From the NCBI GenBank assembly GCA_943331295.2, contig CALQLA020000020.1, positions 20,718 to 84,717 of the forward strand: DNA of 64,000 nt, read 5' to 3'. Positions 20,432 through 49,149 of the stretch are shown here, one piece after another. The DNA comes from Bordetella parapertussis. GTDB lineage: Bacteria > Pseudomonadota > Gammaproteobacteria > Burkholderiales > Casimicrobiaceae. A program made the position numbers and the translations under genes. The notes beneath the pieces were generated by a model. It had not been told where the DNA came from. It ran no database searches and saw only the letters and a program-made list of their open reading frames with translations. The stretch's first letter is position 1, and every line of letters begins with the position of its first letter.

Positions 20432-20445
20432 TTGATCTGGCTCAA
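20432..20445. promoter_or_regulatory. FNR/ANR-type box upstream of hemN
   Basis: TTGATCTGGCTCAA matches the FNR/ANR consensus TTGATnnnnATCAA at nine of ten fixed positions. It is 36 bases before the hemN ATG. hemN is a classic ANR/FNR target in proteobacteria, so induction under low oxygen is likely. Confidence 0.72.
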
Positions 20446-22759: not shown

Positions 22760-23011
22760 ATGAAACTCTCAAAGTACGTCAAGTTCCGCGAAGAAAAATT
22801 CGGCGGCGTCCTCTTCGAGACCCGATCGGAGAAGGTCTTTACGCTCAACGCCGTCGCGACCGCGGTCGTGCGCGAGATGAAGGCGGGGGGCGACGAGAAG
22901 GCCATCGTCGCTCGGCTCAGGGAAACGTACGACGACAGCGGCGGCGCCATCGAGCGCGAAGCGCTGGCCTTCATCGCCGACCTGCGGCAGAAAGGCCTGG
23001 TCGAGGATTGA
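22760..23011 (+). CDS. PqqD-like peptide chaperone (RiPP recognition element)
   Basis: An 83-residue protein of the PqqD/MftB type. It reads MKLSKYVKFREEKFGGVLFE then TRSEKVFTLNAVATAVVREM and ends in an FIADLRQKGLVED helix. This is the winged-helix RRE fold that grips the leader of a RiPP precursor and presents it to a radical SAM enzyme. It lies four bases before the first radical SAM gene. No PQQ genes (pqqB, C, E) and no recognisable PqqA are present. The start has no strong SD. The role as leader-peptide binder is inferred from the family and the neighbourhood. Confidence 0.85.
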   Translation: MKLSKYVKFREEKFGGVLFETRSEKVFTLNAVATAVVREMKAGGDEKAIVARLRETYDDSGGAIEREALAFIADLRQKGLVED

Positions 23012-23015
23012 CGAC

Positions 23016-24020
23016 GTGACCGGAACGACCGCCAACCCCATGCCGCCGCCGCCCGCGGCCTCGTCAGCGCTGTCGGCCCCGGCCGAATCGAGCGACCTCG
23101 GCGCGCCGCTCTACGTCGCCTGGCAGATCACCAACGAGTGCAACCTCGCCTGCCTGCACTGCATCGAGGAGAGCGGCCCCGGCAAGGCGTTTCCCGACGA
23201 GCTCGACCGCGACCAGGTCTTCGACGTCCTCGGCCAGTTCATGGACCAGGAGATCCCGTACCTGTCCTTCTCCGGCGGCGAGCCGATGGTCCACCCGCTG
23301 TTCTTCGAGATGGTCGAGTACGTCTGCTCGCGCGGCGCGCAGCTCAAGGTGGAGACCAACGGCCACTACCTGACGCCCGGGAACTGCGAGCGGATGAAGG
23401 CGCTGGGGGTCAAGGCGGTCCAGGTCAGCATGGACGGGGCGACGGCGGCGACGTTCAACCGGATGCGCATCCGCGGCAACTTCGACACCGCCGTCGACGG
23501 CGTGCGCAACCTGCACGCGGCCGGCGTGCCGATCGAGATCAACTACTCGCCGACGTTCTTCAACGTGCACGAGATCGGCACCGCGATCGACCTCGCCCAC
23601 GAGCTCGGCGCCTACAGCTTCTACACCGGCCGCACGATGTTCACCGGCAACGCGGTGAAGGCCTGGCACAAGCTCGCGCTGTCCGAGGAGCAGTACCACG
23701 CGTTCTTCGACACGCTGCACCGCAAGACCGGCGAGTACGAGGGCCGGATGCGCGTGCACTACCACGAGATGGGCCTCCTCGAGGAGCTGCGCTACCGGCT
23801 GGTCCACCCGGCCGCGCTGCTGATCGTGCTGCCCAACGGCCTCGTCAAGCTGATCAACGCGCTGCCGTTCATCTGCGGCGACCTCCGCCGCCAGTCCATC
23901 GCCGAGATCTGGGCGAACTTCCAGCGCGCCTGGCAGGACCCGCGCGTCGCGCAGTTCATCGACGACCTCGCGGCCGATCCCGGCAAGACGGCGACGCTCC
24001 ACAAGTGGGTCTACGTATGA
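23016..24020 (+). CDS. Radical SAM protein 1 of the RiPP-like cluster
   Basis: A 334-residue radical SAM enzyme with CNLACLHC (Cys42, 46, 49) binding the SAM-cleaving [4Fe-4S] cluster, then SGGEP near 86-90 as the SAM-contact motif. It starts with a GTG and has a Pro/Ala/Ser-rich N-terminal tail absent from its two paralogues. The C-terminal part (VLPNGLVKLINALPFICGDL) looks like a vestigial SPASM region, with one cysteine rather than the several needed for auxiliary clusters. Family members coupled to PqqD-like proteins make C-C, C-O or C-S bonds in peptides. Its stop overlaps the UbiA start (ATGA). Confidence 0.87.
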   Translation: MTGTTANPMPPPPAASSALSAPAESSDLGAPLYVAWQITNECNLACLHCIEESGPGKAFPDELDRDQVFDVLGQFMDQEIPYLSFSGGEPMVHPLFFEMVEYVCSRGAQLKVETNGHYLTPGNCERMKALGVKAVQVSMDGATAATFNRMRIRGNFDTAVDGVRNLHAAGVPIEINYSPTFFNVHEIGTAIDLAHELGAYSFYTGRTMFTGNAVKAWHKLALSEEQYHAFFDTLHRKTGEYEGRMRVHYHEMGLLEELRYRLVHPAALLIVLPNGLVKLINALPFICGDLRRQSIAEIWANFQRAWQDPRVAQFIDDLAADPGKTATLHKWVYV

Positions 24021-24949
24021 CGGTGGGGGCGACCCCGACGCTCGCGGGCACGTCGCCGCTGGCGCGGGTGCTGTGGATCTTCAGCATGGTCCGCTACCGG
24101 TTCTTCCTGTACGCGGGCCTCCTGCCCTACGGCCTGGGCGCGGCCTGGGCCTACGGGTCGACCGGCACGCTCGACGGCCCGATCTTCTGGAGCGGCCTCT
24201 CCGGCGTGGTCTGCGCCGTGATCGGCGTCGAGACCTTCAACGAGTACTTCGACTCGCGGATGGGCACCGACCGGGTGTTCAACCCGGCGGACCTGCCGCC
24301 GATGTCGTCGCTCGTCATGTGGATCGGCATCGCGGCGTTCGCCGCGGCGTTCGCGGTCGGCGTCTACCTCGCCTACCGGGGCGGGTGGCCGATCCTGCTG
24401 TTCGCGGTGCTGGGCGGCATGGCGGCGATCTTCTACGTGGCGCCGCCGATCCGCTGGGCGTATCGCGGTCTGGGCGAACTCGTGATAGCGCTGTCGTACG
24501 GCCCGTGGATGGTGCTGGGCAGCGTCTACCTCTACACCGGGAAGCTGCCGTGGGGCGCGTTCTGGGCGTCGCTGGTGCCCGGATTCCTGATCATGGCGCT
24601 CGCGGTCGTCAACGCGATCCCCGACTTCCACCAGGACCGCCTGGTCGGCAAGCGCAACCTGTGCGTCCGCGTGGGCCGCCGCAACGCCGTGTGGCTCTAC
24701 CTCGGCCTCGCCTCGGCCGGGCTGCTGGTCGTGCCGCTGGGCGTGGCGGCGCGCGTGTTCCCGCCCGCCTGCCTCGCCGCGCTCCTCGCCGTGCCGCTGC
24801 TCGCGGCGAGCGCGCGCGCCGCCGTTGCCACCTACGAGATCCCGCGCCTCTTCGTGCCGGCGATCCGCAACATCGTCACGTGCTACGCCGTGGCGGTGAC
24901 GCTGTTCACCATCGGGCTGCTCGCTGCCGCCTGGTGGCCGGTCGGATGA
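24017..24949 (+). CDS. UbiA-family prenyltransferase embedded in the RiPP-like cluster
   Basis: A 310-residue polytopic membrane prenyltransferase with about eight to nine helices. The first Asp-rich motif is NEYFDSRMGTD (75-85) and the second is NAIPDFHQDR with Asp203/Asp207 followed by VGKRNLCVRVG. These bind the Mg-prenyl diphosphate, and the pattern is closest to MenA-type members. Both ends overlap radical SAM genes by four bases (ATGA at 24017 and at 24946), so it is translationally coupled to them. No menaquinone or ubiquinone genes are nearby. I infer that it prenylates the cluster's product or a quinone that the product works with; this is unproven. Confidence 0.86.
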   Translation: MTVGATPTLAGTSPLARVLWIFSMVRYRFFLYAGLLPYGLGAAWAYGSTGTLDGPIFWSGLSGVVCAVIGVETFNEYFDSRMGTDRVFNPADLPPMSSLVMWIGIAAFAAAFAVGVYLAYRGGWPILLFAVLGGMAAIFYVAPPIRWAYRGLGELVIALSYGPWMVLGSVYLYTGKLPWGAFWASLVPGFLIMALAVVNAIPDFHQDRLVGKRNLCVRVGRRNAVWLYLGLASAGLLVVPLGVAARVFPPACLAALLAVPLLAASARAAVATYEIPRLFVPAIRNIVTCYAVAVTLFTIGLLAAAWWPVG

Positions 24950-25899
24950 CGCACTGGATCGACGGCCTCGCCGGGCCGCTCCTGGTGTCGTGGCAGCTGA
25001 CGCGCGACTGCGACCTCGCCTGCCTGCATTGCTGCACCGAATCGGCGCCGGGCAAGAAGATGCCCGGCGAGCTCGACGCCGCCGAAGCGCTGGCGCTCGC
25101 GGCGGACATCGTGGCCGCGAACGTCCCCTACGTCATGCTGTGCGGCGGCGAGCCGCTGGTCGTCCCGCACTTCTTCGAGGTCGCCGGGGCGCTCGGCAAC
25201 GGCGGCGTCAAGCTCAAAGTCGAGAGCAACGGCCAGTTGTTCGACGACGCGGTCGCCGCGCGGCTCGCCCGGCTGCCGATCCGGTCGATCCAGATCAGCA
25301 TCGACGGCGACACGCAGGAAACCTACGAGCGCCAGCGCCCGGGCGCGTCGCTCGCCCGGGCGCATGCGGCATGCCGCGCCGTGCGCGCGGCCGGGCTGCC
25401 GCTCGAGATCACGTTCGCCCCGACCCGTCTCAACCTGCACGAGGCCGCGGCGGTCATCGCGCGCGCCCGGTCCTTCGGCGCGTTCCGCTTCAATACCGGC
25501 CGCCTGATGCGCATCGGCACCGCGGCGAAGCTCTGGGGCCGACTCGAGCCCTCGGCGGCGGACTACGAGGCGTTCCTCTCCCTCCTCGCGCGGGAAGAGG
25601 GACGCATTGGCCGCGAAATGGAACTCTGCTATATTCCCTTCGCGATGAAAGATGCCCTGCAGGGCATGCTCGAGGAGCCCCCTGCGACGATGCTCGTGTT
25701 ACCCAACGGCTGGGTGAAAGTTGCGGCGGCCCTGCCGGATGTTTGCGCTGATCTGCGCCGCAAGACGTTTGCCGAGGCGTGGGAAGCGTACTGCGGTGCC
25801 TGGCGGAACGATGCGATGGCACCCGCGATACGCCGGGCGATCAGCGATGAATCGCGGCACGCGGAAGCGAACAAGTGGCAGTTGAAAATTGGCGGTTGA
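24946..25899 (+). CDS. Radical SAM protein 2 of the RiPP-like cluster
   Basis: A 317-residue radical SAM enzyme paralogous to protein 1 from end to end. It has CDLACLHCC (Cys22, 26, 29), CGGEP for the SAM motif, and ATMLVLPNGWVKVAAALPDV before the single C-terminal cysteine (VCADLRRK). It ends with an ANKWQLK tail that matches HKWVYV of protein 1. There is no long N-terminal tail. It begins inside the stop of the UbiA gene and ends 36 bases before the precursor-peptide gene. Which bond it makes cannot be told from sequence. Confidence 0.87.
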   Translation: MTHWIDGLAGPLLVSWQLTRDCDLACLHCCTESAPGKKMPGELDAAEALALAADIVAANVPYVMLCGGEPLVVPHFFEVAGALGNGGVKLKVESNGQLFDDAVAARLARLPIRSIQISIDGDTQETYERQRPGASLARAHAACRAVRAAGLPLEITFAPTRLNLHEAAAVIARARSFGAFRFNTGRLMRIGTAAKLWGRLEPSAADYEAFLSLLAREEGRIGREMELCYIPFAMKDALQGMLEEPPATMLVLPNGWVKVAAALPDVCADLRRKTFAEAWEAYCGAWRNDAMAPAIRRAISDESRHAEANKWQLKIGG

Positions 25900-25935
25900 T
25901 TTCGGTGGCCCCAGTCTGACCTTACAGGAGAGCAT

Positions 25936-26088
25936 ATGAGCGGACATGCAGCGACGGAAAGCGAACGGAAGGCCGACCACAAAGTGGCCACCTCGACGAA
26001 GCCCAACGAGAAGCTGACCTGGGAAACGCCCAAGCTCGAGGACGTCTCGGAACAGGTGATGGCGCAGCCGTACATCCGGTTCACCTGA
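25936..26088 (+). CDS. Candidate RiPP precursor peptide, 50 residues
   Basis: A short ORF with a clear SD (CAGGAG, 25925-25930) starting MSGHAATESER. The N-terminal half is charged and low in complexity (Lys/Glu/Thr-rich), like a leader. The C-terminal half has LTWETPKLEDV then SEQVMAQPYIRFT to the end. W29-x-x-P32-x-L34 followed by Glu39 and Tyr46 recalls the PqqA plan (W-x-x-P, then Glu and Tyr that are cross-linked), and also the aromatic-x-x-P-x-L leader motif read by RRE proteins. It lies between radical SAM genes 2 and 3 on the same strand. No cysteine is present, so thioether products are excluded. I did not match it to a named precursor family. Confidence 0.75.
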   Translation: MSGHAATESERKADHKVATSTKPNEKLTWETPKLEDVSEQVMAQPYIRFT

Positions 26089-26089
26089 A

Positions 26090-26109
26090 ATTGCCGGATT
26101 TCCGGCAAT
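26090..26109. promoter_or_regulatory. Perfect 20-base palindrome between peptide gene and radical SAM gene 3
   Basis: ATTGCCGGA (26090-26098), TT, then TCCGGCAAT (26101-26109) form an exact inverted repeat. It begins one base after the peptide stop codon and contains the first two bases of the next gene's ATG (26108). As RNA it would fold over the start codon and ribosome landing zone of radical SAM 3, lowering its translation relative to the peptide. It could also protect the 3' end of a processed peptide mRNA. There is no U-run, so it is not a classic terminator. A DNA operator is another possibility. Confidence 0.6.
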
Positions 26110-27067
26110 GAGCGGGCGCGCGGTCGATGCATACCGGGCGCCCCTTTTTTTCGCCTGGCAGCTGACGAACCGCTGCACGGCGCGGTGCCTCGCCTGCTGC
26201 GAGGAGTCGGGCCCCGACCGTGCCTGGCGCGATGAGCTGACGCGAAGCGAGGCGCTCGACGTCACGCAGTCGATCATCGACATCGGCATCCCCTTCGTCG
26301 CCTTCGGCGGCGGCGAGCCGCTCGGGGTACCGCACAGCTGGGAAATCTTCGACCGCCTCGCCGCCGCCGGCGTCGCGCTCAAGCTGGAAACCGACGGCAG
26401 CCGCATCGACGACGCCGCTGCCGACCACCTCGCGGCGCTCGCCGTCGAGTGCATCCAGATCTCGATCGACGGCGCCACGGCCGCCACCCACGAGCGCTCG
26501 CGCCCCGGGCAGAGCTTCGCGGGCGCCGTCGGCGCGATGAAGCGGCTCGTAGCGCGCGGCATGACGCCGCAATTCGTCTTCGTCCCCAACCGCTTCAACA
26601 TCGGCGAGATCGTCGCCGCCTGGGACCTCGCGGCCGATCTCGGCTGCGGCGCGTTCATCACCGGCCCCCTGATGCGCCTGGGGCGGGCCGCGGCGGCGTG
26701 GGACACGCTCGCCTGCACCGACGAGGAATGGCGCCGCGCCGCCGACGCGCTGCGGGAGCGCGCCTCTGCGCGCGCCACCGGCATGGCGCTGTCGATCTAT
26801 CCGTGGGACATCGTCACGGAAATGGAGACGCGCCTCGGAAGCCCCCAGGCGATGCTGCTGGTCGTCCCCAACGGCAAGGTCAAGCTGCTGAACGCGCTGC
26901 CATTCGCGCCGGCCGACCTGCGCCGCGTCTCGCTCGACGCGGCCTGGGACGCCTACCGCGACGCATGGAAGAGCGACGAGGTGCGCACCTTCGTCACGTC
27001 GGTCCGCGGCAACCCCGCGCTCCTGCTGCACGCCAACGAGACGTGGGAAATGGGCGCGCGGCGCTAG
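26108..27067 (+). CDS. Radical SAM protein 3 of the RiPP-like cluster
   Basis: A 319-residue radical SAM enzyme, third paralogue. It has CTARCLACC (Cys23, 27, 30), GGGEPLGVPHSW, ISIDGATAATHERSRPGQSF, and LVVPNGKVKLLNALPFAPAD at the C-terminus, where even the single cysteine of its paralogues is lost. The tail ANETWEMGARR keeps the conserved Trp. It directly follows the precursor gene (19-base gap filled by a palindrome). Three such paralogues around one 50-residue peptide suggest successive modifications, or a split between catalytic and partner roles. Confidence 0.87.
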   Translation: MSGRAVDAYRAPLFFAWQLTNRCTARCLACCEESGPDRAWRDELTRSEALDVTQSIIDIGIPFVAFGGGEPLGVPHSWEIFDRLAAAGVALKLETDGSRIDDAAADHLAALAVECIQISIDGATAATHERSRPGQSFAGAVGAMKRLVARGMTPQFVFVPNRFNIGEIVAAWDLAADLGCGAFITGPLMRLGRAAAAWDTLACTDEEWRRAADALRERASARATGMALSIYPWDIVTEMETRLGSPQAMLLVVPNGKVKLLNALPFAPADLRRVSLDAAWDAYRDAWKSDEVRTFVTSVRGNPALLLHANETWEMGARR

Positions 27068-29477: not shown

Positions 29478-30290
29478 CTACTTCATGCCGATGCTCACCA
29501 TCTTGCGGCGCATGAAGGCGATCTGCGTGGCGAGCGGCAGGTTCTTCGGGCACACGTCGTGGCAGGCGAGGAGCGACATGCAGCCGAACACGCCGTTGTC
29601 GTCGCCGATCACGTCGTAGAAGTCCTGGTCCGTGCGCGCGTCGCGCGGGTCGAGCCGGAAGCGGGCGACGCGGTTCAGCCCCACCGCACCGACGAAGTCC
29701 TCGCGCATCCGCGCCGTGCCGCAGGCGGCGACGCAGCAGCCGCACTCGATGCAGCGGTCGAGCTCGTAGATGCTGTCGGCCAGTTCGGGCTCCATCTTCT
29801 CCTCGAGACGCGTGAGGTCCGGATCGGGATTCTTCATGTGCAGCCAGCCCTGCACCCGCTCGCTCATGCCGCGCATCCACTTGCCGGTGTCGACCGAGAG
29901 GTCGCCGATCAGCTCGAAGAACGGCAGCGGCGCCAACGTGATCTCCGGGTCGAGGTTCTTGGTCAGAGTGCGGCACGCCAGCGTCGGCCGGCCGTTGATC
30001 ACCATCGCGCAGCTGCCGCAGATCCCCGCGCGGCAGACGAAGTCGAACTGCAGCGACGGGTCCTGCGTCTCGCGGATCTCGTTCAGCGCGATGAACAGCG
30101 TCATGCCGTCGGCCTCCTCGAGGTCGTAGGTCTGCATGCGCGGCACGCTGTCCTTGTGCTGCGGGTTGTAGCGCAGCACGCTGATCTTCAGCCGGCGATG
30201 CGCGCCGTTGCCGTCGCCGGCGCCGCCCCCGCCGTTGCCGGCCACGACCCCGTTGCCCACGGGGAACACCTTGATGACCGCGCGGTTCAT
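29478..30290 (-). CDS. frdB: Fumarate reductase iron-sulfur subunit FrdB
   Basis: The 270-residue electron-transfer subunit of quinol:fumarate reductase. The plant-type [2Fe-2S] site is CRAGICGSC...LACRT, and the [4Fe-4S] and [3Fe-4S] sites are in [13 protein letters not shown] and [12 protein letters not shown] with KNLP after it. A Gly/Asn-rich insert (about 12-30) lies near the N-terminus. It overlaps the frdA stop by four bases. With a five-helix FrdC and the gene order C-A-B, this is the Wolinella-type (type B) enzyme rather than the E. coli type. Direction in vivo (fumarate reduction or succinate oxidation) cannot be fixed by sequence. Confidence 0.93.
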
Positions 30291-32278
30291 TTGTCGTTCC
30301 CGAAAAGTTCGTCGATGCGTTCGTTGCGGCCCCGTATCGGCTCGGGCAGCAGCGCGTCGTAGGGCATCAGCGCCGACTGCACGGCGAAGCGCGGGGCACC
30401 CGCCATCCGGGCCTTCAGCGCCTCGACTTCGGCGATGCGGCCGGGCGTGTCGGGATGGTCGACGTAGTCCTTGGCGCCGTAGCCGCGCCAGCCCGGCGGC
30501 AGCTCCATGCGCCTGACGTCGAGCGCCTGCCAGTCGAGCGTCGGCAGCGTGTCGTTCTCGCTCTTCCACGACGCCAGCGTGCGGGACAGCCATTGCGCGT
30601 CGTTGCGGCGCGGGAAGTCCTGCCGGAAGTGCGCGCCGCGGCTCTCGGTGCGCGTCAGCGCGCCGTAGGCGATGCAGAGCGCGACCTTCAGCATCTTCTG
30701 CACGCGGTAGGCGGTGACGAGCTCGGGGTTGGACCCGCGCGACTTGTCGGACAGGCCGATGTTACGGCTCTTCACCAGCAGCTGCTGCAGCTCGTCGACC
30801 GCCGCCTGCAGGTCCTCGCCGCGGCGGAAGATGCCGACCTTGGCCGTCATCAGGTCCTGCATGCGGCCCTTGATCGCGGACGCGTCCTCGGTGCCGCCGC
30901 CGTCGATCAGCGTGTCGATCTTCGCCTGCTCGCGGCGCAGGAACTCGTGCGCGAGCCGGGTCGGGATGTCGGTCTCGTTCTCGAGCCTGTCGCAGAAGTC
31001 CGCGATGTACTCGCCGACGATCATGCCCGCCACCACCGTCTCCGCGACCGAGTTGCCGCCCAGCCGGTTGAAGCCGTGCATGTCCCAGCAGGCCGCCTCC
31101 CCCGCGGCGAACAGGCCCTTCAGCGCCGGGCTCTCGCCGGTGTGGTTGGTGCGCACGCCGCCCATCGTGTAGTGCTGGGCGGGGCGCACCGGGATCCATT
31201 CCTTGATCGGATCGACGCCGAGGAAGTGGTGGCAGATCTCCCAGACCTCGCGCAGGTTGTGCCGGATGTGCTTCTCGCCCAGCAGCGTGATGTCGAGCCA
31301 GATGTGGTCGCCGAACCGGCTCTTGGCGCCCTTGCCCTTCGCGATGTGCTCCTCCATCCGCCGGCTGACGACGTCGCGCGAGGCGAGTTCCTTCTTCTCG
31401 GGCTCGTAGTCGGGCATGAAGCGGTGGCCGTCGACGTCCTTCAGCAGGCCGCCGTCGCCGCGGCAGCCCTCGGTGACGAGGATGCCCGCCGGGAAGATGC
31501 CCGTCGGGTGGAACTGCACCGCCTCCATGTTGCCGAGCGTGGCCACGCCGGTCTCCAGTGCCAGCGCGCTGCCGATGCCCTCGCAGATCACGGCGTTGGT
31601 GGTGACGCGGTAGATGCGGCCGGCGCCGCCGCTGCAGATCGCCGTGGCCTTGGCGACGTAGGCGACGAGCTCGCCGGTGACGAGGTTTCGCACGATGGCG
31701 CCGAAGCAGCGGCTGCCGTCGTGGATCAGCGCGATCGCCTCGGTGCGCTCGTGCACGGGAATCGCGGCGCCGATCGCCTGGTCGCTCATCGTCTGCAGCA
31801 TCGCGTGGCCCGTGCCGTCGGAGACGTAGCAGGTCCGCCACTTCTTGGTGCCGCCGAAATCGCGCTGCGCGACCAGGCCGTGCGCCTCGTCGCGCTCGGT
31901 GATGGTGACCGGCTGGCCGTTGATGATGACCGTGCGGTCGCCGCGCCGCACGCGGCTCCACGGCAGGCCCCACGCGGCGAGCTCGCGCACGGCCTTGGGC
32001 GCCGTGTTGACGAACATCCGCACGACCTCCTGGTCGGCACCCCAGTCGCTGCCGCGGACCGTGTCCTCGAAGTGGACGTCCTCGGTGTCGCCCTGGCCCT
32101 TGATCACGTTGCCGAGCGAGGCCTGCATGCCGCCCTGCGCCGCCGCCGAGTGCGAGCGCTTGGGCGGCACCAGGGACAGGATGATGACGTCGTGGCCGCG
32201 GCGCCTCGCGCCGATGGCGACGCGGAGGCCTGCCAGCCCGCCACCGATCACGAGCACGTCGGTATAGATGATCTTCAT
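30287..32278 (-). CDS. frdA: Fumarate reductase flavoprotein subunit FrdA
   Basis: The 663-residue catalytic subunit reducing fumarate at covalently bound FAD. The dinucleotide motif GGGLAG is at 12-17. HSAAAQGG at 43-50 has the His that carries [23 protein letters not shown] and the active-site Arg in [14 protein letters not shown] are present. The C-terminal domain ends near ELFGNDK. The start at 32278 ([14 protein letters not shown]) overlaps the frdC stop. The length fits Wolinella-type FrdA (about 650) better than SdhA (about 590). Confidence 0.94.
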
Positions 32279-33057
32279 TTCACGCCACCTGCAGGTGTCT
32301 TGTCGAGCCAGGTCGGCACGTACGGCTTGCCATAGTCGGCCTGGTGCTCGATGCCGATCCTGATGTACGCGGCGAGCGTCGCGAATCCCAGCACGAGGAA
32401 GAACACCGTGATCGCCCACTTGACGCGCTTCAGGCGCACGCGCATCGCGTCGGGCGCGGCCTCGCCGATCCAGCCCCACTTGACGCAGAGCCGGTAGAGG
32501 CCGATGCCGCCGTGCAGCTCGACCGCCAGCAGCAGCAGGATGTAGAGCGGCCACATGTAGTCGCTCCACACCCGGTCGGCGGACTCGTACGGGCCGATCC
32601 GTTCGGGATGCGTCAGCATGATGTACAGGTGCACCGACGCGAGGAAGAACAGCGCGAAGCCGGTGAACACCTGCCAGAACCAGAGCGTGGTGTCCTCGTG
32701 CCGCATCACGCGCATGTGGCCGCGGTAGGTGTCGTACTGGCGCCAGCTGATCGGGAACTTGCGCAACGCGAGCAGCGCGTGGCCGACGAACAGCACGATC
32801 ACGCAGGCGACGACGATCGAGACGAGGCCGGGGAACGAGCGGCCGAAGACGAAATAGCCTTCGAAGAACTTGGTGATGGTCCACATCGCGTCCTTCGATA
32901 TCAGGATCGACGACACGAAGAACATGTGGCCCCACATGAACAGCCCCAGCACGAGGCCGCTGGCGCTCTGCGCGAAATCGAGCCGCGCCGGCCAGCGGCT
33001 TTTCCGCTCGCGGTGCGCCAACCCGGCTCCGGCGATGATCTGCCTGCTCGATTCCAT
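32275..33057 (-). CDS. frdC: Fumarate reductase cytochrome b subunit FrdC (five-helix, di-heme type)
   Basis: A 260-residue membrane anchor with five predicted helices, including [56 protein letters not shown] and [17 protein letters not shown]. The His residues in these helices (WGHM, VGHAL, SVHLY, ELHGG) match the four heme b ligands of the Wolinella enzyme. It takes electrons from menaquinol or a similar quinol. The start at 33057 is set by GGGAGAG just upstream. It is the first gene of frdCAB, downstream of two tandem FNR-type boxes. Confidence 0.91.
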
Positions 33058-33201
33058 CAGCTCTCCCTTTCGCGGGTAAATGCCGGCCAAGAGAATACGG
33101 CCGGACCTGACTCGCCATCAACCGGCGCGACGTGCCGCACTGCAACATGCAACGCGGCCCCGGCTTGGCGACAAGGGTAGCGTCCGAACGCGCCGCCGCC
33201 A

Positions 33202-33234
33202 TTGACTTGCATCAACACAGTTGACTTGCATCAA
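33202..33234. promoter_or_regulatory. Two tandem FNR/ANR-type boxes in the frd / malic-enzyme intergenic region
   Basis: TTGACTTGCATCAA occurs twice, at 33202-33215 and 33221-33234, as a 19-base direct repeat. Each matches TTGATnnnnATCAA at nine of ten fixed positions. They lie 145 bases upstream of the frdC ATG and 133 bases upstream of the malic-enzyme ATG, in a 309-base gap (33058-33366) that otherwise holds no gene I can support. Divergent low-oxygen control of fumarate reductase and malic enzyme is the natural reading. Confidence 0.7.
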
Positions 33235-35760: not shown

Positions 35761-37146
35761 CTACAGCCGCCCGATCACCCAGCCCGGGAACACCGCGAGC
35801 ACGATCGCCATGGCGACGCAGAGCGCGCCCGCCCCCAGTGCCATCGCGCCGGGCGCGCCGCGCACGGCATTCGTGTCCTCGGCACTCATGAACAGGATCT
35901 GGATCACCCGCAGGTAGAAGTAGATGCCGAGGTAGCTGCCGACAAGGCCGAGCACGGCATAGGTCGTGTAGCCAGCGGCCATCACGTTGCGGAAGATCAG
36001 GAATTTGGCGATGAATCCGGGCAGCGGCGGCAGGCCCGCGAGCGAGAACATGGCGACGGCGATCAGCACAGCCGAGACCGGCCGGCGATGGTAAAGGCCC
36101 TTCAGGTTGTCCAGGCGATCGCGGGCAGCGTCGTCCTCGTGCCTGGGAAGCGCGGCGAATGCGAGCAGGTTCATTGCGCCGTAGGCGATGACATAGAAGA
36201 GCACCGCCTGGAAGCGTCCCGCGGGGTCGCCGAGGAAAGCGTAGAACAGGTATCCCGCGTGCGCGATCGACGAGTACGCGATCATGCGCCGGAAGCTCTG
36301 CTGCCGCATCGCGGCGAGGTTGCCCCAGACGATCGAGAGCAGCGGCAGCAACGCGATGAGTTCGGTGACCGACCCCGAGGTCGTGGCGGCACCGAACATC
36401 CGCACTGCCGCCAGCAGCACGCCCGCCTTGACGACGGTCGCCATGTACGCGGTGACCGGGATCGCGGCCGCCTCGTACGCGTCCGGCGCCCAGGCGTGGA
36501 ACGGCACGATCGCCGCCTTCAGGAAGAACGCCACGATGATCAGCACCACCGCCATGCGCGTCATCGCGTCGGTCGCGGCCAGTGCATCGGCGAAGCCGGC
36601 CAGTGCCAGCGACCCGGTGCCGCCGTACAGCAGCGAAACGCCCATCAACAGCGTCGCCGTGGCGGTCCCGCCCAGCACCAGGTACTTCAGCGCCGCCTCC
36701 GCGCTGGCCGGGCGGCGATAGGCGAGCACCACCAGCGCATAGAGCGGGAGCGACATCAGCTCGAGGCCGATGAACAGCGTGAGGAAACTGTCGGCGGACA
36801 GCAGCAGGCAAACGCCGTACAACGAGGAGAGCAGCAGGATGTGGAACTGCCGCTGGGCGGCCTCCTCGAAGGACATCAGCACGACCGGGATCGCCAGCGC
36901 GAGGACGACGAATTTCGCGAGCAGCGCCGATGGGTCGACCGAGAATTGGCCGGGGAACGCGTCCCAGGCATAGCCCTGCCAGCACAGCCAGAGCGCCAGC
37001 GCGGCGCCGAGCGCCAGCGCCGCCAGCGACACGCCCAGTGCGCGCTCCTCGCGGCTCGCGCCGATTTCCTGCAGGATCAGCACGACGATGCCGGCGAGCA
37101 GCACCGTCTCGGGCAGCATCGCGAGCAGCACATTGCTCCAGTTCAT
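35761..37146 (-). CDS. nuoN: NADH-quinone oxidoreductase subunit N
   Basis: A 461-residue antiporter-like proton-pumping subunit of complex I with about 14 helices. It starts MNWSNVLLAMLPETVLLAGI, has the proton-path Glu and Lys helices (HILLLSSLYGVCLLLSADSF and AFFLKAAIVPFHAWAPDAYE), and the broken-helix segment RQQSFRRMIAYSSIAHAGYL. It is the last gene of the nuoA-N operon and overlaps nuoM by four bases. Confidence 0.95.
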   Translation of the reverse strand: MNWSNVLLAMLPETVLLAGIVVLILQEIGASREERALGVSLAALALGAALALWLCWQGYAWDAFPGQFSVDPSALLAKFVVLALAIPVVLMSFEEAAQRQFHILLLSSLYGVCLLLSADSFLTLFIGLELMSLPLYALVVLAYRRPASAEAALKYLVLGGTATATLLMGVSLLYGGTGSLALAGFADALAATDAMTRMAVVLIIVAFFLKAAIVPFHAWAPDAYEAAAIPVTAYMATVVKAGVLLAAVRMFGAATTSGSVTELIALLPLLSIVWGNLAAMRQQSFRRMIAYSSIAHAGYLFYAFLGDPAGRFQAVLFYVIAYGAMNLLAFAALPRHEDDAARDRLDNLKGLYHRRPVSAVLIAVAMFSLAGLPPLPGFIAKFLIFRNVMAAGYTTYAVLGLVGSYLGIYFYLRVIQILFMSAEDTNAVRGAPGAMALGAGALCVAMAIVLAVFPGWVIGRL

Positions 37147-38735
37147 CGCGCACCCGCCTTCGCTTCGCCGGTGGCGTCCGGCGCCGGCCGGATGGCCGCG
37201 ACCGCGGGCGCACCGGTCCGGGTTTCCAGGACCAGTTGCCGGAAATGCCGGGCAGCCACTTCCGTCTTGCGCAGCGGCTCGGCCGGGAAGAGCCCGAGCC
37301 AGAAGACCGCGCCCATGATCGTCACCAGGATGAAGCGCTCACGCAGGTTGATGTCGCCCAATGGCTGGTGCGGCGCCTTGACCGGTCCGAACAGGAAGCG
37401 CTGCGCAAACCACAGCATGTACAGCGCACCGAGCACCACGCCGGCGATCGCGCTCGCGTTGATGAAAAGCGGATAGAACTCGCCGCGCCCGTAGGACGGC
37501 CAGGCCGAGCTGAACGCCCCCAGCAGCACCAGGAACTCGCCGGTGAATCCGCTGGTCGTGGGCAGGCCGATGGCGGCCAGCGTGAACACCACCACGAAGA
37601 CCGAATACACCGGCATGATCGACGCCAGTCCGCCGTAGGCCGCGAGTTCGCGGGTGTGGCAGCGCTCGTAGACCATGCCGACCAGCAGGAACAGCGCGCC
37701 GGCGACCAGCCCGTGGCTCACCATCTGCATCACCGCGCCCTGGATACCCAGCAGGTCGAGGCTGATCAGGCCCAGCATGACGAAGCCCAGGTGGCTGATC
37801 GACGAGTAGGCGATGATCTTCTTGATGTCGGTCTGCACCAGCGCGAGGCACGCGCCGTAGATGATGCTGACCACCGCCAGGGTCGAGATGACCGGTGCCA
37901 GCAGCCGCGTCGCGTCGGGGAACAGGGGGAACCCAAGTTTCATGAAACCGTACGTGCCCATCTTGAGCAGCACGCCGGCCAGGATCACCGAGCCGGCCGT
38001 CGGCGCCTCGACGTGGGCGTCCGGCAGCCAGGTGTGCAACGGGACGATCGGCACCTTGATCGCGAACGACAGGCCGAACGCGGCGAGCAGCAGCACCTGC
38101 ACGCGCAGCGGCAGCTGGGAGCGGTACAGGTCGGTGAAGGCGAACGAGGTCACGCCGGTCGTGGCGTCCAGCGACCAGACGAGGTAGATCAGCGCGGCCA
38201 GCATCAGGATGCTGCCGAACGCCGTGTACAGCACGAACTTGAAGGTGGCGTAGATCCGGCGCTCGCCGCCCCAGATGCCGATGATGAAGAACATCGGGAT
38301 CATCATCGCTTCCCAGAACAGGTAGAACAGGAACAGGTCCTGCGCGACGAACGCGCCGACCATCGCGAACTGGATCAGCAGCACCATCGCGTGGAAGAGC
38401 TTGACGTCCTGCCGGATCGCGGTGAGCGACCCCAGCACCACCAGCGGCCCGAGGAACGCGGTCAGCAGGACCAGCAGGAGGTTGTAGCCGTCCAGTCCGA
38501 TCCGGTACGCCACGCCCCAGTCGGCGATCCACGGCACCGTCGTCTCGAACTGCAGGCCCGTGGCGGCGGCGTCGAACCGCAGGTACAGGATCGCGGCCAG
38601 CACGAACTGGGCGAGCATGACCGCCAGCGTCACCAGCCGCACCGGCGCGTCCTGCTTCGGCGCCAGCGCGAACAGGACCAGCACGCCGGCGACCGGCAGC
38701 CACAGCACGAGGTTGAGGAGGCCAGCGTCAGCCAT
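37143..38735 (-). CDS. nuoM: NADH-quinone oxidoreductase subunit M
   Basis: A 530-residue antiporter-like subunit of complex I. Key stretches are LFYLFWEAMMIPMFFIIGIW with the proton-path Glu, FAIKVPIVPLHTWLPDAHVE, and QTDIKKIIAYSSISHLGFVM around the discontinuous helix. The C-terminus is rich in Ala/Pro and extends a little beyond the usual end. It overlaps nuoL by eight bases. Confidence 0.96.
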   Translation of the reverse strand: MADAGLLNLVLWLPVAGVLVLFALAPKQDAPVRLVTLAVMLAQFVLAAILYLRFDAAATGLQFETTVPWIADWGVAYRIGLDGYNLLLVLLTAFLGPLVVLGSLTAIRQDVKLFHAMVLLIQFAMVGAFVAQDLFLFYLFWEAMMIPMFFIIGIWGGERRIYATFKFVLYTAFGSILMLAALIYLVWSLDATTGVTSFAFTDLYRSQLPLRVQVLLLAAFGLSFAIKVPIVPLHTWLPDAHVEAPTAGSVILAGVLLKMGTYGFMKLGFPLFPDATRLLAPVISTLAVVSIIYGACLALVQTDIKKIIAYSSISHLGFVMLGLISLDLLGIQGAVMQMVSHGLVAGALFLLVGMVYERCHTRELAAYGGLASIMPVYSVFVVVFTLAAIGLPTTSGFTGEFLVLLGAFSSAWPSYGRGEFYPLFINASAIAGVVLGALYMLWFAQRFLFGPVKAPHQPLGDINLRERFILVTIMGAVFWLGLFPAEPLRKTEVAARHFRQLVLETRTGAPAVAAIRPAPDATGEAKAGAR

Positions 38736-40608
38736 GGCGCCAACTCCAGGCCAGCGTGACGATGAGTCCGACCAGCGCCAGCAGCGCGTACCGGTGCAGG
38801 TTGCCGTTCTGCACCCGCCCGAGAACGCCCGCGGTGCGCTTGCCCAGCGCCGCCATGCCGTCGAGTGAGCCGTCGATCAGCGCCCGGTCGCCCAGTCGCA
38901 GAAAGACGTGGTCGGAGACCCAGACCAGCGGCCGGGTGATGAAGCGATCGTAGGCCTCGTCGACGAAGTACTTGCCGGAGAGCAGCGTGTGCAGGCCGGC
39001 GAACTGCCGCCCTGCCCGCTCGGCGCGCGCAGCGGCGCCGCCGAACATGAACGCGGCGCCCAGCACGCCGATCACCGCCAGGACCACCGATACGACCACA
39101 AGCGTGTGCTCCAGATGCCCGATCGCCTCGGGTACCGGCGGCAACGGCAGCAGCGCTTCGAGGAAGTGCGGGATCGGCAGGAAACCGCCGACCGCCGAGA
39201 GCACGGCCAGCACGATCAGCACGCCGGTCATCGCCGGCGGCGACTCGTGGACATGGTGCTCGGTTTCCGCGCTCATCCGCGACGCGCCGAAGAACGTGAG
39301 CCACAGCAGCCGGAACATGTAGAACGACGTGATCAGCGCCGTGCCCGCCGCCACCGAGTAGAGCAACGTCGAGCCGCCGCGGCTGCTCGCGAAGGCGAAC
39401 CAGAGGATCTCGTCCTTCGAGAAGAACCCGGACAGCGGCGGCAGCCCGGCGATGGCCGCGGTCGCGACCGCGAAGGCGAAGAAGGTCACCGGAATCCGCC
39501 GCGCGAGCCCGCCCATCTTGCGGATATCCTGCTCCCCGCCGAGCGCGTGGATCACGCTGCCGGCCGACAGGAACAGGCAGGCCTTGAAGAACGCGTGCGT
39601 GACGAGGTGGAAGATCGCGACCCCGTAGGCGCCCACGCCCAGCGCCACGAACATGAAGCCCAGCTGCGAGATGGTGGAATACGCGAGAACCTTCTTGATG
39701 TCGGTCTGCACGACCGCGATCGTCGCCGCGAAGAACGCGGTGGCGACGCCGATTCCCGCGACCAGCGCGCTGGCCTCCGGCGCGTGCAGGTAGATCCCCG
39801 ACAGCCGGGCGACCAGGTACACCCCCGCCGTCACCATCGTCGCCGCGTGGATCAGCGCCGACACCGGGGTCGGGCCTGCCATGGCGTCCGGCAGCCACAC
39901 GTGCAGCGGAATCTGCGCCGATTTGCCGGTCGCTCCGATGAACAGCAGTATCCCCACCAGGCTCGCCGACACCGCCGGCGCCGGACCGCTCAGGAACGCG
40001 GTGTTGATCGTTACCATGTCCAGCGTGCCGAACGCCTGGAACAGCACGAACATGCCGAGCAGGAAGCCGGCGTCGCCGACCCGGTTGGTGATGAAGGCCT
40101 TCTTGCCCGCGCGGGCCTTGTCCGGGTCCTCGAACCAGAAGCCGATCAGCAGGTAGGACGCGAGCCCCACCCCCTCCCAGCCGACGAACAGGACCAGCAG
40201 CGACTTGCCCAGCACCAGCATCAGCATGAAGAACAGGAACAGGTTCAGATACGCGAAGTAGCGGGCGTAGCTCTTGTCCTCCTTCATGTAGCCGATCGAG
40301 TAGATGTGGATCAGCGAGCCGACCCCGGTCACGACCAGCGCCATGACCGCGGTGAGCCGGTCGAAATAGAAGGCGATCTCGAAGGGGTGGGTGGTGCCGA
40401 GCACCCAGGTGTAGGCGACCTCGGTGACGGGCGCGCCGCCCGGGGCCGTGAGGCCGAGGAAAGCCTGCACCACCAGGACGAAGGCGAGGATGGGCATCCC
40501 GCAGGCGACGACCGACACGAAGCGTTTGCCCAGCTGCCTGCCGAAGAGGCCGTTGAGCAGGAAGCCTGCCAACGGCAGCGCAACGATCAGGCCGAGCGCG
40601 TGTCGCAT
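38728..40608 (-). CDS. nuoL: NADH-quinone oxidoreductase subunit L
   Basis: A 626-residue subunit with about 16 helices and the long lateral amphipathic helix at the C-terminus, which couples the distal proton channels. It has LFVGWEGVGLASYLLIGFWF, QIPLHVWLPDAMAGPTPVSA and QTDIKKVLAYSTISQLGFMF. It starts MRHALGLIVALPLAGFLLNG, three bases after nuoK. Everything expected of NuoL is present. Confidence 0.96.
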   Translation of the reverse strand: MRHALGLIVALPLAGFLLNGLFGRQLGKRFVSVVACGMPILAFVLVVQAFLGLTAPGGAPVTEVAYTWVLGTTHPFEIAFYFDRLTAVMALVVTGVGSLIHIYSIGYMKEDKSYARYFAYLNLFLFFMLMLVLGKSLLVLFVGWEGVGLASYLLIGFWFEDPDKARAGKKAFITNRVGDAGFLLGMFVLFQAFGTLDMVTINTAFLSGPAPAVSASLVGILLFIGATGKSAQIPLHVWLPDAMAGPTPVSALIHAATMVTAGVYLVARLSGIYLHAPEASALVAGIGVATAFFAATIAVVQTDIKKVLAYSTISQLGFMFVALGVGAYGVAIFHLVTHAFFKACLFLSAGSVIHALGGEQDIRKMGGLARRIPVTFFAFAVATAAIAGLPPLSGFFSKDEILWFAFASSRGGSTLLYSVAAGTALITSFYMFRLLWLTFFGASRMSAETEHHVHESPPAMTGVLIVLAVLSAVGGFLPIPHFLEALLPLPPVPEAIGHLEHTLVVVSVVLAVIGVLGAAFMFGGAAARAERAGRQFAGLHTLLSGKYFVDEAYDRFITRPLVWVSDHVFLRLGDRALIDGSLDGMAALGKRTAGVLGRVQNGNLHRYALLALVGLIVTLAWSWRHG

Positions 40609-40611
40609 CGC

Positions 40612-40914
40612 TTATCCTTTCAGGTCGACGTAGGCGTCGAGGTCCAGCGCGTGCTTCTGCCGCACCAGCAGCAGCACGATGGGGATGGCGATGGCGATCT
40701 CGGCGGTCGCGACCACGAAGACCAGGAACACCAGCACGGCGCCCGCCGAGGCGCCGGTCTGCTGGGCAAAGGCCACGAGGCTCAGGTTCACGCCGTTGAG
40801 CATCAGTTCCATGCACATCAGCATCACCAGCACGTTGCGCCGGACGATGACCCCGACCAGCCCCAGCGCGAACAGCGCGAAGGCGACCGCCAGCAAGAAC
40901 TGCAGCTTATCCAT
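40612..40914 (-). CDS. nuoK: NADH-quinone oxidoreductase subunit K
   Basis: A 100-residue three-helix subunit in the membrane arm. It shows RNVLVMLMCMELMLNGVNLS with the conserved membrane Glu, and FVVATAEIAIAIPIVLLLVR with the second. Its start overlaps the nuoJ stop by eight bases. Length and sequence are standard. Confidence 0.96.
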   Translation of the reverse strand: MDKLQFLLAVAFALFALGLVGVIVRRNVLVMLMCMELMLNGVNLSLVAFAQQTGASAGAVLVFLVFVVATAEIAIAIPIVLLLVRQKHALDLDAYVDLKG

Positions 40915-41410
40915 GCTTGCGCCGTCCGATCTGCAGCACCGCCAGCGCGGCGACCACGGCGGCGACCAGCAGGACCGACGCCAGTTCGAAATGCAGCCAG
41001 TAGTGGGACAGGAATTCCAGCGAGAACTCCTTCACGCCGAACAGCGTGCCCGCCGCCCCCGCGGGCTCGCCCCGTGTGTGCCAGAGCCCGTGGCCGATGA
41101 TCGCCAGGAACGCCACGAGGCCGATCACGCCCGGTATCAGCAGCCGCGAGAAGCGCCCGGTGTACGAGCGGTCGCGAACGTCGAGCAGCATGATCGCGTA
41201 GACCATGAACACCATCACCGCACCGACGTAGATCAGCACCTGGAACACGGCGATCACGTGCACCGACAGCAGCGCGTAGACGCCGGCGAGCGAGATCATG
41301 CTGGCGACCAGCGCCAGCGCGACCCGCATCGGGTGGCGCAGCACGAGCATCAGCGCCGCCGCGCCCAGCGCGGTGAGCGCGAACAGGTAGAGCAGCGCGG
41401 TCTCGATCAT
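40907..41410 (-). CDS. nuoJ: NADH-quinone oxidoreductase subunit J
   Basis: A 167-residue five-helix membrane subunit. The start is MIETALLYLFALTALGAAAL at 41410; the longer open frame upstream is a shadow of nuoI. AVFQVLIYVGAVMVFMVYAI contains the pi-bulge helix TM3 that transmits conformational change. It overlaps the nuoI stop by four bases. At 167 residues it is shorter than many betaproteobacterial NuoJ (about 200), lacking part of the C-terminal tail. Confidence 0.94.
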   Translation of the reverse strand: MIETALLYLFALTALGAAALMLVLRHPMRVALALVASMISLAGVYALLSVHVIAVFQVLIYVGAVMVFMVYAIMLLDVRDRSYTGRFSRLLIPGVIGLVAFLAIIGHGLWHTRGEPAGAAGTLFGVKEFSLEFLSHYWLHFELASVLLVAAVVAALAVLQIGRRKHG

Positions 41411-42009
41411 TCGGCACCTCGCGCGCCGCCGGTCGCCGGCTTCGGGGGATACGGCTTCGCCACGTCGCTCTGCGGCTTCCAGTGCAGCAGCTCGTCGAGC
41501 GACAGCCAGAGCCGGTCGCGATCGTGGGTCGGGAGATCCGGCACTTCCTTGACCATGCGGATGGCGTCCTCGGGGCAGGCTTCGACGCACAGGCCGCAGA
41601 AGACGCAACGGGAGTAGTCGATGGTGAAGGCGACCGGGAACTTCGGGTGCGCCGGATCGTCCGGGTCGAAGCCGGCCTCGATCTCGATCACCTTGGCCGG
41701 GCACACCGTCGCGCACATGTTGCAGGCGACGCACTGCGGGCTGCCGTCCGGCCGCTGCGTCAGGACGTGCTTGCCGCGGTTGCGCTCGGCGTAGTCGACG
41801 CGGGTTTCCTCGGGGTAGTAGGTGGTGAGCGCGCCCTTGCGGAACGTCATCCACTTCCACATGTTGCGCAGGAACACGCCGCCGGTGATGCCGAGCCCCC
41901 GCAGGATCTCGAACAGGTACGCCCGCTCCCACCACGACATCGTGGGCTCGTTCCAGTACCGCTTGCGGACGTAGGGTTTCCGGGTCACGGGCGGAGTCTC
42001 AGAGGGCAC
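41407..42009 (-). CDS. nuoI: NADH-quinone oxidoreductase subunit I
   Basis: A 200-residue peripheral-arm subunit carrying two [4Fe-4S] clusters (N6a, N6b). The motifs are CVACNMCATVCPAKVIEIEA and CVFCGLCVEACPEDAIRMVK. It is longer than the usual 162 residues, with an N-terminal extension (MPSETPPVTRKPYVRK) and a Pro-rich C-terminal tail. An internal ATG (MSWWERAYLF) would give a protein closer to the common length. It overlaps nuoH by eleven bases. Confidence 0.94.
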   Translation of the reverse strand: MPSETPPVTRKPYVRKRYWNEPTMSWWERAYLFEILRGLGITGGVFLRNMWKWMTFRKGALTTYYPEETRVDYAERNRGKHVLTQRPDGSPQCVACNMCATVCPAKVIEIEAGFDPDDPAHPKFPVAFTIDYSRCVFCGLCVEACPEDAIRMVKEVPDLPTHDRDRLWLSLDELLHWKPQSDVAKPYPPKPATGGARGAE

Positions 42010-43150
42010 GCAGGAGCCAGATCGCGACGACGGTCACGGTCAGGTTGGCGAGAGCCAGAGGGAACATGAACTTCCAGGCGAAGGTCAGCAGCTGGTCGTA
42101 GCGGAAGCGCGGCAGCGACCAGCGCACCAGGATCTGGAAGCTGCACACCAGCAGCACCTTGGCCAGGAACACGACCAGCTGCGTGACCACCACCGCCCAA
42201 TGCGGGAGCGCGACCGTTTGCCCGCCCGGCAGCGAGAAGCCGGCATCGGTCATGAACGGAAGGTTGTAGCCGCCGAGGAAAAGCGCGGTGAACAGCGCGC
42301 CGATGATCGCGATCTCGATGAACTCGGCGAACATGAACAACCCCATCTTCATGGCGCTGTACTCGGTGTAGTAGCCGGCGATCAGCTCCGACTCCGCCTC
42401 CGGCAGGTCGAACGGTATCCGCTTGTTCTCGGCGATCGCCGCGGTCATGAACAGGATGGCCGCGAACGGCTGGTAGACGATGCCCCAGGCGGGCAGGGCG
42501 CCCAGTGCCACCCCCGACTGCTGCTGCGCGATCGCCGTCAGGTCCACCGTGCCGTAAAGCAGGATCAGCCCCAGCACCGTGAGGCCCATGATCAGCTCGT
42601 AGGAGATCATCTGCGAGCCCGCGCGCAGCGCGCCCAGCATCGAGAACTTGTTCGACGACGACCAGCCGGCCAGCATCGTGCCGATGATGGTCAGCCCGCC
42701 GAAGGCGAACACCACCAGCAGCCCGGCATCGAGGTTCGCGATCTGCAGCGCGTAGTGGCGATCGCCGAACCAGTTGGCGATGGCGGGAATGCCCTGGAAC
42801 AGCGTCGCGGGCACCAGCACGCCGCCGAACGGAATGACGGCGAACACCAGCAGCACCGGCGTGAACACGATCCACGGCCCCAGTGCGTAGGCCACGCGGT
42901 CGTAGGATTGCGGCCTGAAGTCCTCCTTCAGCATCATCTTGAGACCGTCGGCCAATCCGTGGAACAGCCCCAGCCAGATCAGCTTGATCTGCGTGAACGG
43001 AAGCCGGACGTACGCACGGTTGGCGCCAATCCGGTCGGCCATGACCGCCGCCTGCTTGCGCTCGACCCAGGTCAGCACGGTGCCGAACAGCAGCAACACG
43101 CCGACGGCGTAGCCGATGAACACCAGTTCGACGACCAGGTCCTGGATCAT
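41999..43150 (-). CDS. nuoH: NADH-quinone oxidoreductase subunit H
   Basis: A 383-residue eight-helix membrane subunit forming the quinone chamber. It starts MIQDLVVELVFIGYAVGVLL and carries the conserved loop VERKQAAVMADRIGANRAY, the charged quinone-site segment YYTEYSAMKMGLFMFAEFIE, and KIPFDLPEAES-type ENKRIPFDLPEAESELIAGY. It is 30-40 residues longer than E. coli NuoH. The start overlaps the nuoG stop. Confidence 0.95.
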   Translation of the reverse strand: MIQDLVVELVFIGYAVGVLLLFGTVLTWVERKQAAVMADRIGANRAYVRLPFTQIKLIWLGLFHGLADGLKMMLKEDFRPQSYDRVAYALGPWIVFTPVLLVFAVIPFGGVLVPATLFQGIPAIANWFGDRHYALQIANLDAGLLVVFAFGGLTIIGTMLAGWSSSNKFSMLGALRAGSQMISYELIMGLTVLGLILLYGTVDLTAIAQQQSGVALGALPAWGIVYQPFAAILFMTAAIAENKRIPFDLPEAESELIAGYYTEYSAMKMGLFMFAEFIEIAIIGALFTALFLGGYNLPFMTDAGFSLPGGQTVALPHWAVVVTQLVVFLAKVLLVCSFQILVRWSLPRFRYDQLLTFAWKFMFPLALANLTVTVVAIWLLRAL

Positions 43151-45866: not shown

Positions 45867-45867
45867 G

Positions 45868-47558: not shown

Positions 47559-47570
47559 CGTGGTCGCGCG

Positions 47571-48044: not shown

Positions 48045-48046
48045 GG

Positions 48047-48562: not shown

Positions 48563-48564
48563 GG

Positions 48565-48930: not shown

Positions 48931-49135
48931 GCAAGGCGCCCGAACGCTGCAGTCGACGCGGGCACGCCTGCGGTGCGGCACGCCGCCGCCGCGCGCCGAT
49001 GGCTCCGGCTCGCGGGCCGCAGTCGCGTACCGGGGTCCCCTTGTTTGGTCTTGTCCATGGCCATTGCGCGCGCGACCGTGATTGCACGGCCGCTTTCCTC
49101 AGGGCGAAGAGTAAGCGCCCCCGCGCCGGCTCCGT

Positions 49136-49149
49136 TTGACTTGGATCAA
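49136..49149. promoter_or_regulatory. FNR/ANR-type box, nuo side
   Basis: TTGACTTGGATCAA matches the FNR/ANR consensus at nine of ten fixed positions. It differs from the boxes at 33.2 kb only in the spacer (TTGG for TTGC). It lies 206 bases upstream of the nuoA ATG and 317 bases from the dehydrogenase ATG. Confidence 0.65.

Follow-up and report, generated by a model that had tools for sequence, protein, structure and literature searches.

A conserved cassette of a precursor peptide, a PqqD-like protein, radical SAM enzymes and a UbiA prenyltransferase, and its predicted quinone-like product

The window analysed here, a 64,000-nucleotide stretch deposited under Bordetella parapertussis (GenBank assembly GCA_943331295.2, contig CALQLA020000020.1, positions 20,718 to 84,717), carries a six-gene cassette at 22760-27067, on the plus strand, that we suspect makes a peptide-derived lipid. 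The first gene (22760..23011) encodes an 83-residue PqqD-like protein (Pfam PqqD PF05402, 4.9e-13), a recognition element (RRE) of the kind found with ribosomally synthesized and post-translationally modified peptides (RiPPs). After a 4-base gap comes the gene for a radical S-adenosylmethionine (rSAM) protein, rSAM1 (23016..24020; Radical_SAM PF04055). This gene overlaps, in an ATGA, that for a MenA/UBIAD1-like UbiA prenyltransferase (24017..24949; PF01040, 8.6e-23), which in turn shares an ATGA with rSAM2 (24946..25899; PF04055). A gene for a 50-residue peptide (25936..26088), with AGGAG ahead of its ATG and no family match, and rSAM3 (26108..27067; PF04055) complete the set. The intergenic distances (4, -4, -4, 36 and 19 bases) are consistent with a single operon, and the PqqD, the three Radical_SAM and the UbiA matches all pass their Pfam cut-offs. 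An earlier reading of the bare letters (the original prediction) had placed six genes on one strand here, with three junctions of four bases or fewer and a small peptide gene behind a good Shine-Dalgarno sequence. All of the genes are where it put them, the three junctions measure 4, -4 and -4, and homologues and conservation indicate that the peptide is real.

The peptide matches no Pfam or NCBIfam family. A search at E<=1 gave 1389 homologues (120 listed), and residues 35-50 are invariant in 30 that were aligned. All 46 copies found by BLAST, in which no pattern was used, have the tail AQPYIRFT, and position -9 is M in 45 of them and T in a gammaproteobacterial locus, L031. In a set of 48 loci, collected with a search pattern that already specified the last nine residues (M or T at -9) and that missed L031, the last ten codons differ only synonymously. 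Over the same loci V(-14), S(-13) and V(-10) are invariant, the invariant places use several synonymous codons, and the N-terminal half of the peptide varies. The W-x-x-P motif (W29 and P32, that is W(-22) and P(-19); 26020..26031, plus strand), with W in 47/48 and P in 48/48 loci, fits the W/Y/LxxP type of recognition sequence that is listed for PqqD and lasso RREs in the available part of a paper on RREs (PMC12710340). A profile of 20 orthologues of the PqqD-like protein, compared with the PDB, matches the lasso RRE TfuB1 first (1.3e-9), followed by TbiB1 and PqqD. From these sequences we infer that W-x-x-P is a putative RRE handle and the AQPYIRFT tail the probable core; the predicted core segment, V-M-A-Q-P-Y-I-R-F-T (26056..26085, plus strand), is conserved in relatives. 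The cassette has two of the features by which an RRE-dependent RiPP pathway is recognized: an RRE protein encoded beside the precursor and the modifying enzymes, and a short precursor with conserved recognition and core segments. The PqqD-like protein of Elusimicrobia loci (e.g., L056 9504-9702) has an N-terminal extension of about 60 residues that is not in the window's protein. A separate small gene ahead of pqqD in these loci was considered and rejected, as the nine loci read have this extension in frame.

The three rSAM proteins are paralogues: rSAM1 shares 38% identity with both rSAM2 and rSAM3 in the window's genome, and 36-42% in the phylum of G060, a carrier discussed below. CX3CX2C is invariant in rSAM1 (Cys columns 28/28), and CX3CX2CC is found in all aligned sequences of rSAM2 (19/19) and rSAM3 (18/18). 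Further cysteines are kept to different degrees: C287 is invariant in rSAM1 and one more occurs in 25/28, rSAM2 has four more in 14-18 of 19, and rSAM3 has two in 14-15 of 18. The SPASM cysteine set is kept by none of the three; the SPASM score of rSAM1 is 13.3 bits against a cut-off of 21.5, and the SPASM model is not among the listed matches of rSAM2 and rSAM3. A predicted model of rSAM1 (predicted local distance difference test score, pLDDT, 87) has SkfB (6efn) and PqqE (6c8v) as its closest structures. Both are peptide maturases, which supports the ribosomally derived product that had been proposed. No listed NCBIfam family accepts any cassette protein (for the rSAMs, among the best 25 of 74, 54 and 50 families), and the nearest models of all three rSAMs, mycofactocin maturase and the haem b synthase AhbD, are far below their cut-offs. 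The possibility that the rSAMs belong to a known non-peptide pathway finds no support, as no listed haem, pyrroloquinoline quinone (PQQ) or mycofactocin model reaches its cut-off.

The cassette works like the PQQ and mycofactocin systems and is a member of neither, because the cut-offs of their models are not reached. Like PqqA, PqqD and PqqE, it combines a ribosomal peptide, a PqqD-type RRE and an rSAM maturase, an arrangement that in PQQ leads to a redox cofactor, and its tail has an invariant Tyr. In contrast to PQQ, it has no PqqB, PqqC or PqqF among the six genes, no SPASM set and another core, and it includes a UbiA; the PqqD model gives 30 bits (cut-off 46) and the PqqE model 45-71 bits (cut-off 381). 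Mycofactocin (MftA-F) similarly has an MftB/MftC-like pair and a peptide-derived redox carrier, and MftC is the best or second-best NCBIfam match of each cassette rSAM. The scores are 19.5 versus 33 bits for MftB and 110-126 versus 265 bits for MftC, no MftD/E/F-like gene is among the six, the core is AQPYIRFT, and, again unlike mycofactocin, a UbiA is present. The claimed lack of pqq and mycofactocin partners holds among the NCBIfam families listed. Lasso RRE TfuB1, which acts with a YxxP leader, is the best structure match of the cassette's RRE profile and recalls its W-x-x-P leader, but the six genes have rSAMs and a UbiA instead of a lasso cyclase. Second copies of pqqADE in Hyphomicrobium (PMC12423496) were rejected as the same system: they look different, and no UbiA is mentioned beside them in the part of that paper available.

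The UbiA protein belongs to the UbiA prenyltransferases by fold and by both Asp-rich motifs (NxxxDx5D and DxxxD, 28/28 aligned). Its fold model is closest to UBIAD1, which is also the sole PDB match of its profile at 0.01. It stays below the MenA equivalog cut-off (105.6 against 264 bits) and that of menA (60.5 against 102 bits). A gene for a trans-polyprenyl diphosphate synthase is just upstream of the cassette in 32 of 33 Elusimicrobia/unnamed loci (the exception is L064), on the same strand and ending 116-251 bases before the pqqD-homologous start. The synthase was identified with PF00348 in L056, with NCBIfam in L056 and L058 and by similarity in the others; that of L059 is a fragment at a contig start. 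It carries a DDxxD, the surroundings of which we take to resemble those of long-chain synthases. This neighbouring gene supports the part of the original prediction in which the product is a prenylated redox carrier in the membrane. No such synthase is directly upstream in the 16 named Proteobacteria loci; in L073 a gene 5.5 kb off, on the opposite strand, encodes a relative with 29% identity. In nine Elusimicrobia/unnamed loci (L046 8047-8574, L055 8060-8575 and seven others) an ArsR/MarR-like regulator gene lies upstream of the synthase.

The cassette is conserved as a unit. A genome scan with an rSAM1 alignment found 51 loci, two of which (L072 and L074) were rejected, as their rSAM genes are unrelated. 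The remaining 49, from Proteobacteria and Elusimicrobia, have the same gene order. Because the scan relied on exact rSAM1 patterns, this set is not a census; L066 is on the same contig as L021. pqqD precedes rSAM1 in 49/49 loci, and the peptide gene lies between rSAM2 and rSAM3 in all 44 loci that reach this place, five (L057, L065, L068, L069 and L071) ending ahead of it. L041 seemed at first to lack the peptide, an artefact of the open reading frame start, but reading the frame shows it in place. Loss of the peptide or of the PqqD-like gene from homologous clusters, either of which would have told against the original prediction, was found in none. Searches that started from the peptide motif found it in 2 of the 64 genomes from the window's family and in 3 of the 399 from its order, both counts including the window's own genome, and every motif-positive genome has cassette genes at the motif site. 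A plasmid search with rSAM1 at 1e-40 gave no match. Two carriers, Rhodovibrio sodomensis DSM 9895 (L040) and Betaproteobacteria bacterium GR16-43, bear a strain name and are not labelled as metagenome-assembled genomes (MAGs).

Some loci are cut or irregular. rSAM3 runs off the contig in L024 and L060 and is interrupted by a masked stretch in L039, frames are broken in the UbiA of L049 and in rSAM2 and rSAM3 of L058, and L070 has 1.7 kb ahead of rSAM3. In L052 (9989-11485) rSAM1 forms an in-frame fusion with a UbiA whose first third is missing, which is either real or an assembly error. L022 (3915-5014; G025 contig 323) has a second, decayed cassette, with an intact peptide gene and broken rSAM2 and rSAM3, on the same contig as an intact copy.

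One genome of the phylum Elusimicrobiota, G183, has a four-gene form (L110 4288-6869) that consists of the peptide, the PqqD-like protein, one rSAM and UbiA. The peptide has the same tail, and the three proteins are 34-46% identical to those of the window. The 11-kb stretch contains neither rSAM2 nor rSAM3, and the genome has no second rSAM1 relative at 1e-60. Because this form has only those enzymes, its gene content suggests that one rSAM and the UbiA may be the core chemistry. A sigma-factor-like gene lies near the four-gene form.

The distribution of the cassette was compared with that of respiratory and quinone genes. Ten Elusimicrobia/unnamed carriers (G060-G069, including the complete chromosome CP096137.1) all have NuoH and COX1 (10/10 each), and none has MqnA/D or a MenD over the cut-off (0/10 each); five have weak MenD-model matches below it. 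For cassette-positive Elusimicrobia altogether, the counts are 10/10 for NuoH, 12/12 for COX1, 0/12 for MqnA/D and 0/12 for MenD over the cut-off. Besides the cassette copy, nine of the ten have UbiA matches that lie no more than 3 kb from COX1. Haem-O synthase is the top match of all eight of these that were classified (seven genomes, with the copies of G064 and G066 left out), six over the cut-off. In eight of the ten genomes, each UbiA other than the cassette copy is haem-O synthase or has the place of that gene by the oxidase. G062 has the cassette UbiA only.

In a sample of 149 genomes from the phylum, carriers were called by rSAM1-3 matches and G183 was counted apart. The cassette is in 7 genomes, among them G060 (= L058) and G164, whose locus was read, and COX1 is in 15; all 7 carriers have COX1 (Fisher 2e-8). 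Strong MqnA/D matches occur in none of the 7 carriers versus 6 of the 8 oxidase-bearing non-carriers (two strong matches each; p 0.007). Of the other two non-carriers, G138 has one weak partial MqnA/D match and G173 has none. MenD over the cut-off was found in 0 of 20 genomes tested, including the eight oxidase-bearing non-carriers. Thus, among oxidase-bearing genomes of this small and phylogenetically linked sample, the cassette and the futalosine genes are mutually exclusive, which also supports a predicted prenylated redox carrier. The futalosine and Men pathways and the cassette would converge on the same kind of end product, a polyprenylated quinone that takes a MenA-like UbiA and a long-chain prenyl diphosphate to make. 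They differ in that the cassette's head group would derive from a peptide and theirs derives from chorismate, and in that the cassette-bearing Elusimicrobia tested have neither MqnA/D nor MenD over the cut-off.

In L031 (1995-4962), pufL-pufM-pufC are upstream, pqqD starts 55 bases past the pufC stop, and DUF3623 follows rSAM3 on the other strand, so the cassette is inside a photosynthesis gene cluster. This linkage, too, favours a prenylated redox carrier. A PF03364 START protein, presumably COQ10-like, although the family is broad, adjoins rSAM3 in the three alphaproteobacterial loci tested (L028, L036 and L038), with a close relative in L035. MtrB porins and multihaem cytochromes are encoded nearby in L030 and L032. 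In five Elusimicrobia/unnamed loci an ankyrin/caspase-domain gene (PF00656, tested on L049) starts at the rSAM3 end (L045 5436, L047 9146, L048 13935, L049 7129 and L070 15565), and its domain makes the protein perhaps a candidate leader or processing peptidase.

The cassette of the window is part of an island with the following genes, some of them named by sequence reading: hemN, a hemerythrin-like gene, succinate dehydrogenase/fumarate reductase (open reading frames 29478..33202, minus strand; Pfam), malic enzyme, a second complex I, D-lactate dehydrogenase, Lut and pyruvate:ferredoxin oxidoreductase. The FNR box that had been claimed before hemN is at 20432..20445 (plus strand, 1 mismatch to TTGATN4ATCAA), upstream of hemN, hemerythrin and the cassette. 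Motif matches give a tandem pair before the malic enzyme and succinate dehydrogenase genes (33202-33234), boxes at 49136 and 49223 (49136-49236) between nuo and D-lactate dehydrogenase, and one at 17359-17372. These six FNR/ANR-like boxes compare with 0.17 expected, and 0 of 100 shuffles reached six; five are ahead of island operons and one is inside a gene. By their positions, the boxes mark a predicted anaerobic regulon island. The second complex I (nuo) operon (35761..48981, minus strand) was read from open reading frames, NuoH (PF00146, 42032-43105) and Nqo3 domains. Its NuoH is 78% identical to one in G057 and 31% to the genome's other NuoH. We rejected this complex as a dedicated partner and claim no special link, because its NuoH is only 39-43% (b-type) and 35-38% (a-type) identical to those of Elusimicrobia.

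We consider it probable, at roughly 60%, that the cassette makes a peptide-derived, polyprenylated quinone-like lipid that would carry electrons between respiratory complexes. We infer that Elusimicrobia use this lipid in place of menaquinone and Proteobacteria in addition to ubiquinone. The PqqD-like RRE would hold the peptide at its W-x-x-P-x-(L/M/I) segment and offer the AQPYIRFT tail to rSAM1, as well as to the related rSAM2 and rSAM3 where the cassette has all six genes. Working at or beside the invariant tyrosine, these enzymes could produce an aromatic, redox-capable head group, to which the MenA/UBIAD1-like UbiA would add a polyprenyl chain, supplied by the neighbouring synthase in Elusimicrobia and by the housekeeping supply in Proteobacteria. 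A peptidase would free the head group; it may be a host enzyme or, perhaps, the caspase-domain protein encoded after rSAM3 in the five loci. The lipid would then act as pool quinone where Elusimicrobiota respire, and in Proteobacteria it would accompany ubiquinone as a second quinone, probably of lower potential. In the fullest form of the proposal, oxygen-respiring Elusimicrobiota would have no pool quinone other than the tail-derived lipid, and Proteobacteria would use it as an additional, low-potential quinone, in one case with a photosynthetic reaction centre; we hold this form tentatively and lean slightly towards doubt.

Several observations weigh against a quinone-like lipid. The cassette has no ring hydroxylase. 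G183 has no COX1 at 1e-30 and no MqnA/D, and the missing oxidase is the adverse part. G066 has one further, MenA-like UbiA. Among the five large genes, pairwise distances show no more than a moderate correlation (Spearman 0.39-0.65 over 39 loci, with L066 and seven other loci, most with cut or broken genes, left out). The carriers in the 149-genome sample rest on rSAM1-3, the other cassette genes of G160 being unread. The small number and relatedness of the carriers mean that the Fisher values overestimate independence. Almost all of the carriers are MAGs, so missing genes may be assembly gaps. G173 and G138 are without the cassette, clear MqnA/D or MenD; thus, missing known pathways alone do not imply the cassette, and these two genomes perhaps have another hidden quinone route or assembly gaps. 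Lastly, the 11 proteobacterial carriers searched have 3-7 UbiA-family matches each, so ubiquinone is probably present in them too.

Other products could be made from the same genes. An unlikely one, though the least so among these, is a prenylated RiPP with a role other than pool quinone, for example as a signal, as a secreted peptide or as a cofactor that is anchored in the membrane and serves a single enzyme. A lipidated RiPP would likewise need an RRE, an rSAM and a prenyltransferase, the distribution of the cassette is patchy (3/399 in the order), and the caspase-domain protein of the five loci could remove the leader in any RiPP. However, there is no exporter in the ten recurring flanking families scanned, five of which have no Pfam match, the tail is invariant across phyla, unlike those of diversifying antibiotics, and neither the co-distribution with the oxidase nor the exclusion against MqnA/D fits such a product. 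It is very improbable that the peptide is a regulator or assembly factor and that the rSAMs and UbiA process an ordinary small molecule: the RRE profile matches TfuB1 and PqqD, the peptide has the W-x-x-P to go with it, and the peptide is kept in 44/44 loci, against which stand the lack, so far, of a modified peptide and the small aromatics that UbiA enzymes presumably use as a rule.

Somewhat less likely than a non-quinone RiPP is a third route to menaquinone itself, in which the peptide would give a naphthoquinone ring that a MenA-like UbiA prenylates. We are aware of no chemistry by which these residues would yield a naphthoquinone, but the UbiA is nearest to UBIAD1/MenA, and no oxidase-bearing Elusimicrobiota genome of the sample has both the cassette and the futalosine genes. 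In the parts of the sources available, MK-10, a menaquinone, is reported to occur in R. salinarum (PMC11316597) and in the genus Rhodovibrio (PMC7179689), to which the cassette-bearing R. sodomensis also belongs. The pufLMC linkage can be read in the same way, as the QA quinone of Rhodopila globiformis is modelled as menaquinone (PMC9640540, in part), and Chobert et al. (2026, in part) describe four species with measured menaquinone and no menaquinone pathway. Against this, neither R. salinarum nor R. globiformis is among the titles of the loci from the rSAM1 scan.

We found no paper on the combination of PqqD, radical SAM, UbiA and precursor peptide in the open-licence literature searched, and the portions available of papers with PqqD and UbiA include none on this cassette. 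The word UbiA does not occur in the available text of two RRE papers (PMC12710340 and PMC7470986). The methyl-plastoquinone of Nitrospirota (PMC13386864), a recently found respiratory quinone, indicates that more may be hidden; the part of that report available does not describe it as peptide-derived.

If our reading of the cassette is correct, its product would be a new kind of respiratory quinone. To our knowledge, membrane quinones with a known pathway are all made from small metabolites, and a gene-templated quinone would join RiPPs and bioenergetics. Such a lipid would likely explain respiration in some oxidase-bearing bacteria in which searches for genes of known quinone pathways found none of those sought, and the cassette is a testable candidate in a group where futalosine and Men markers were not found.

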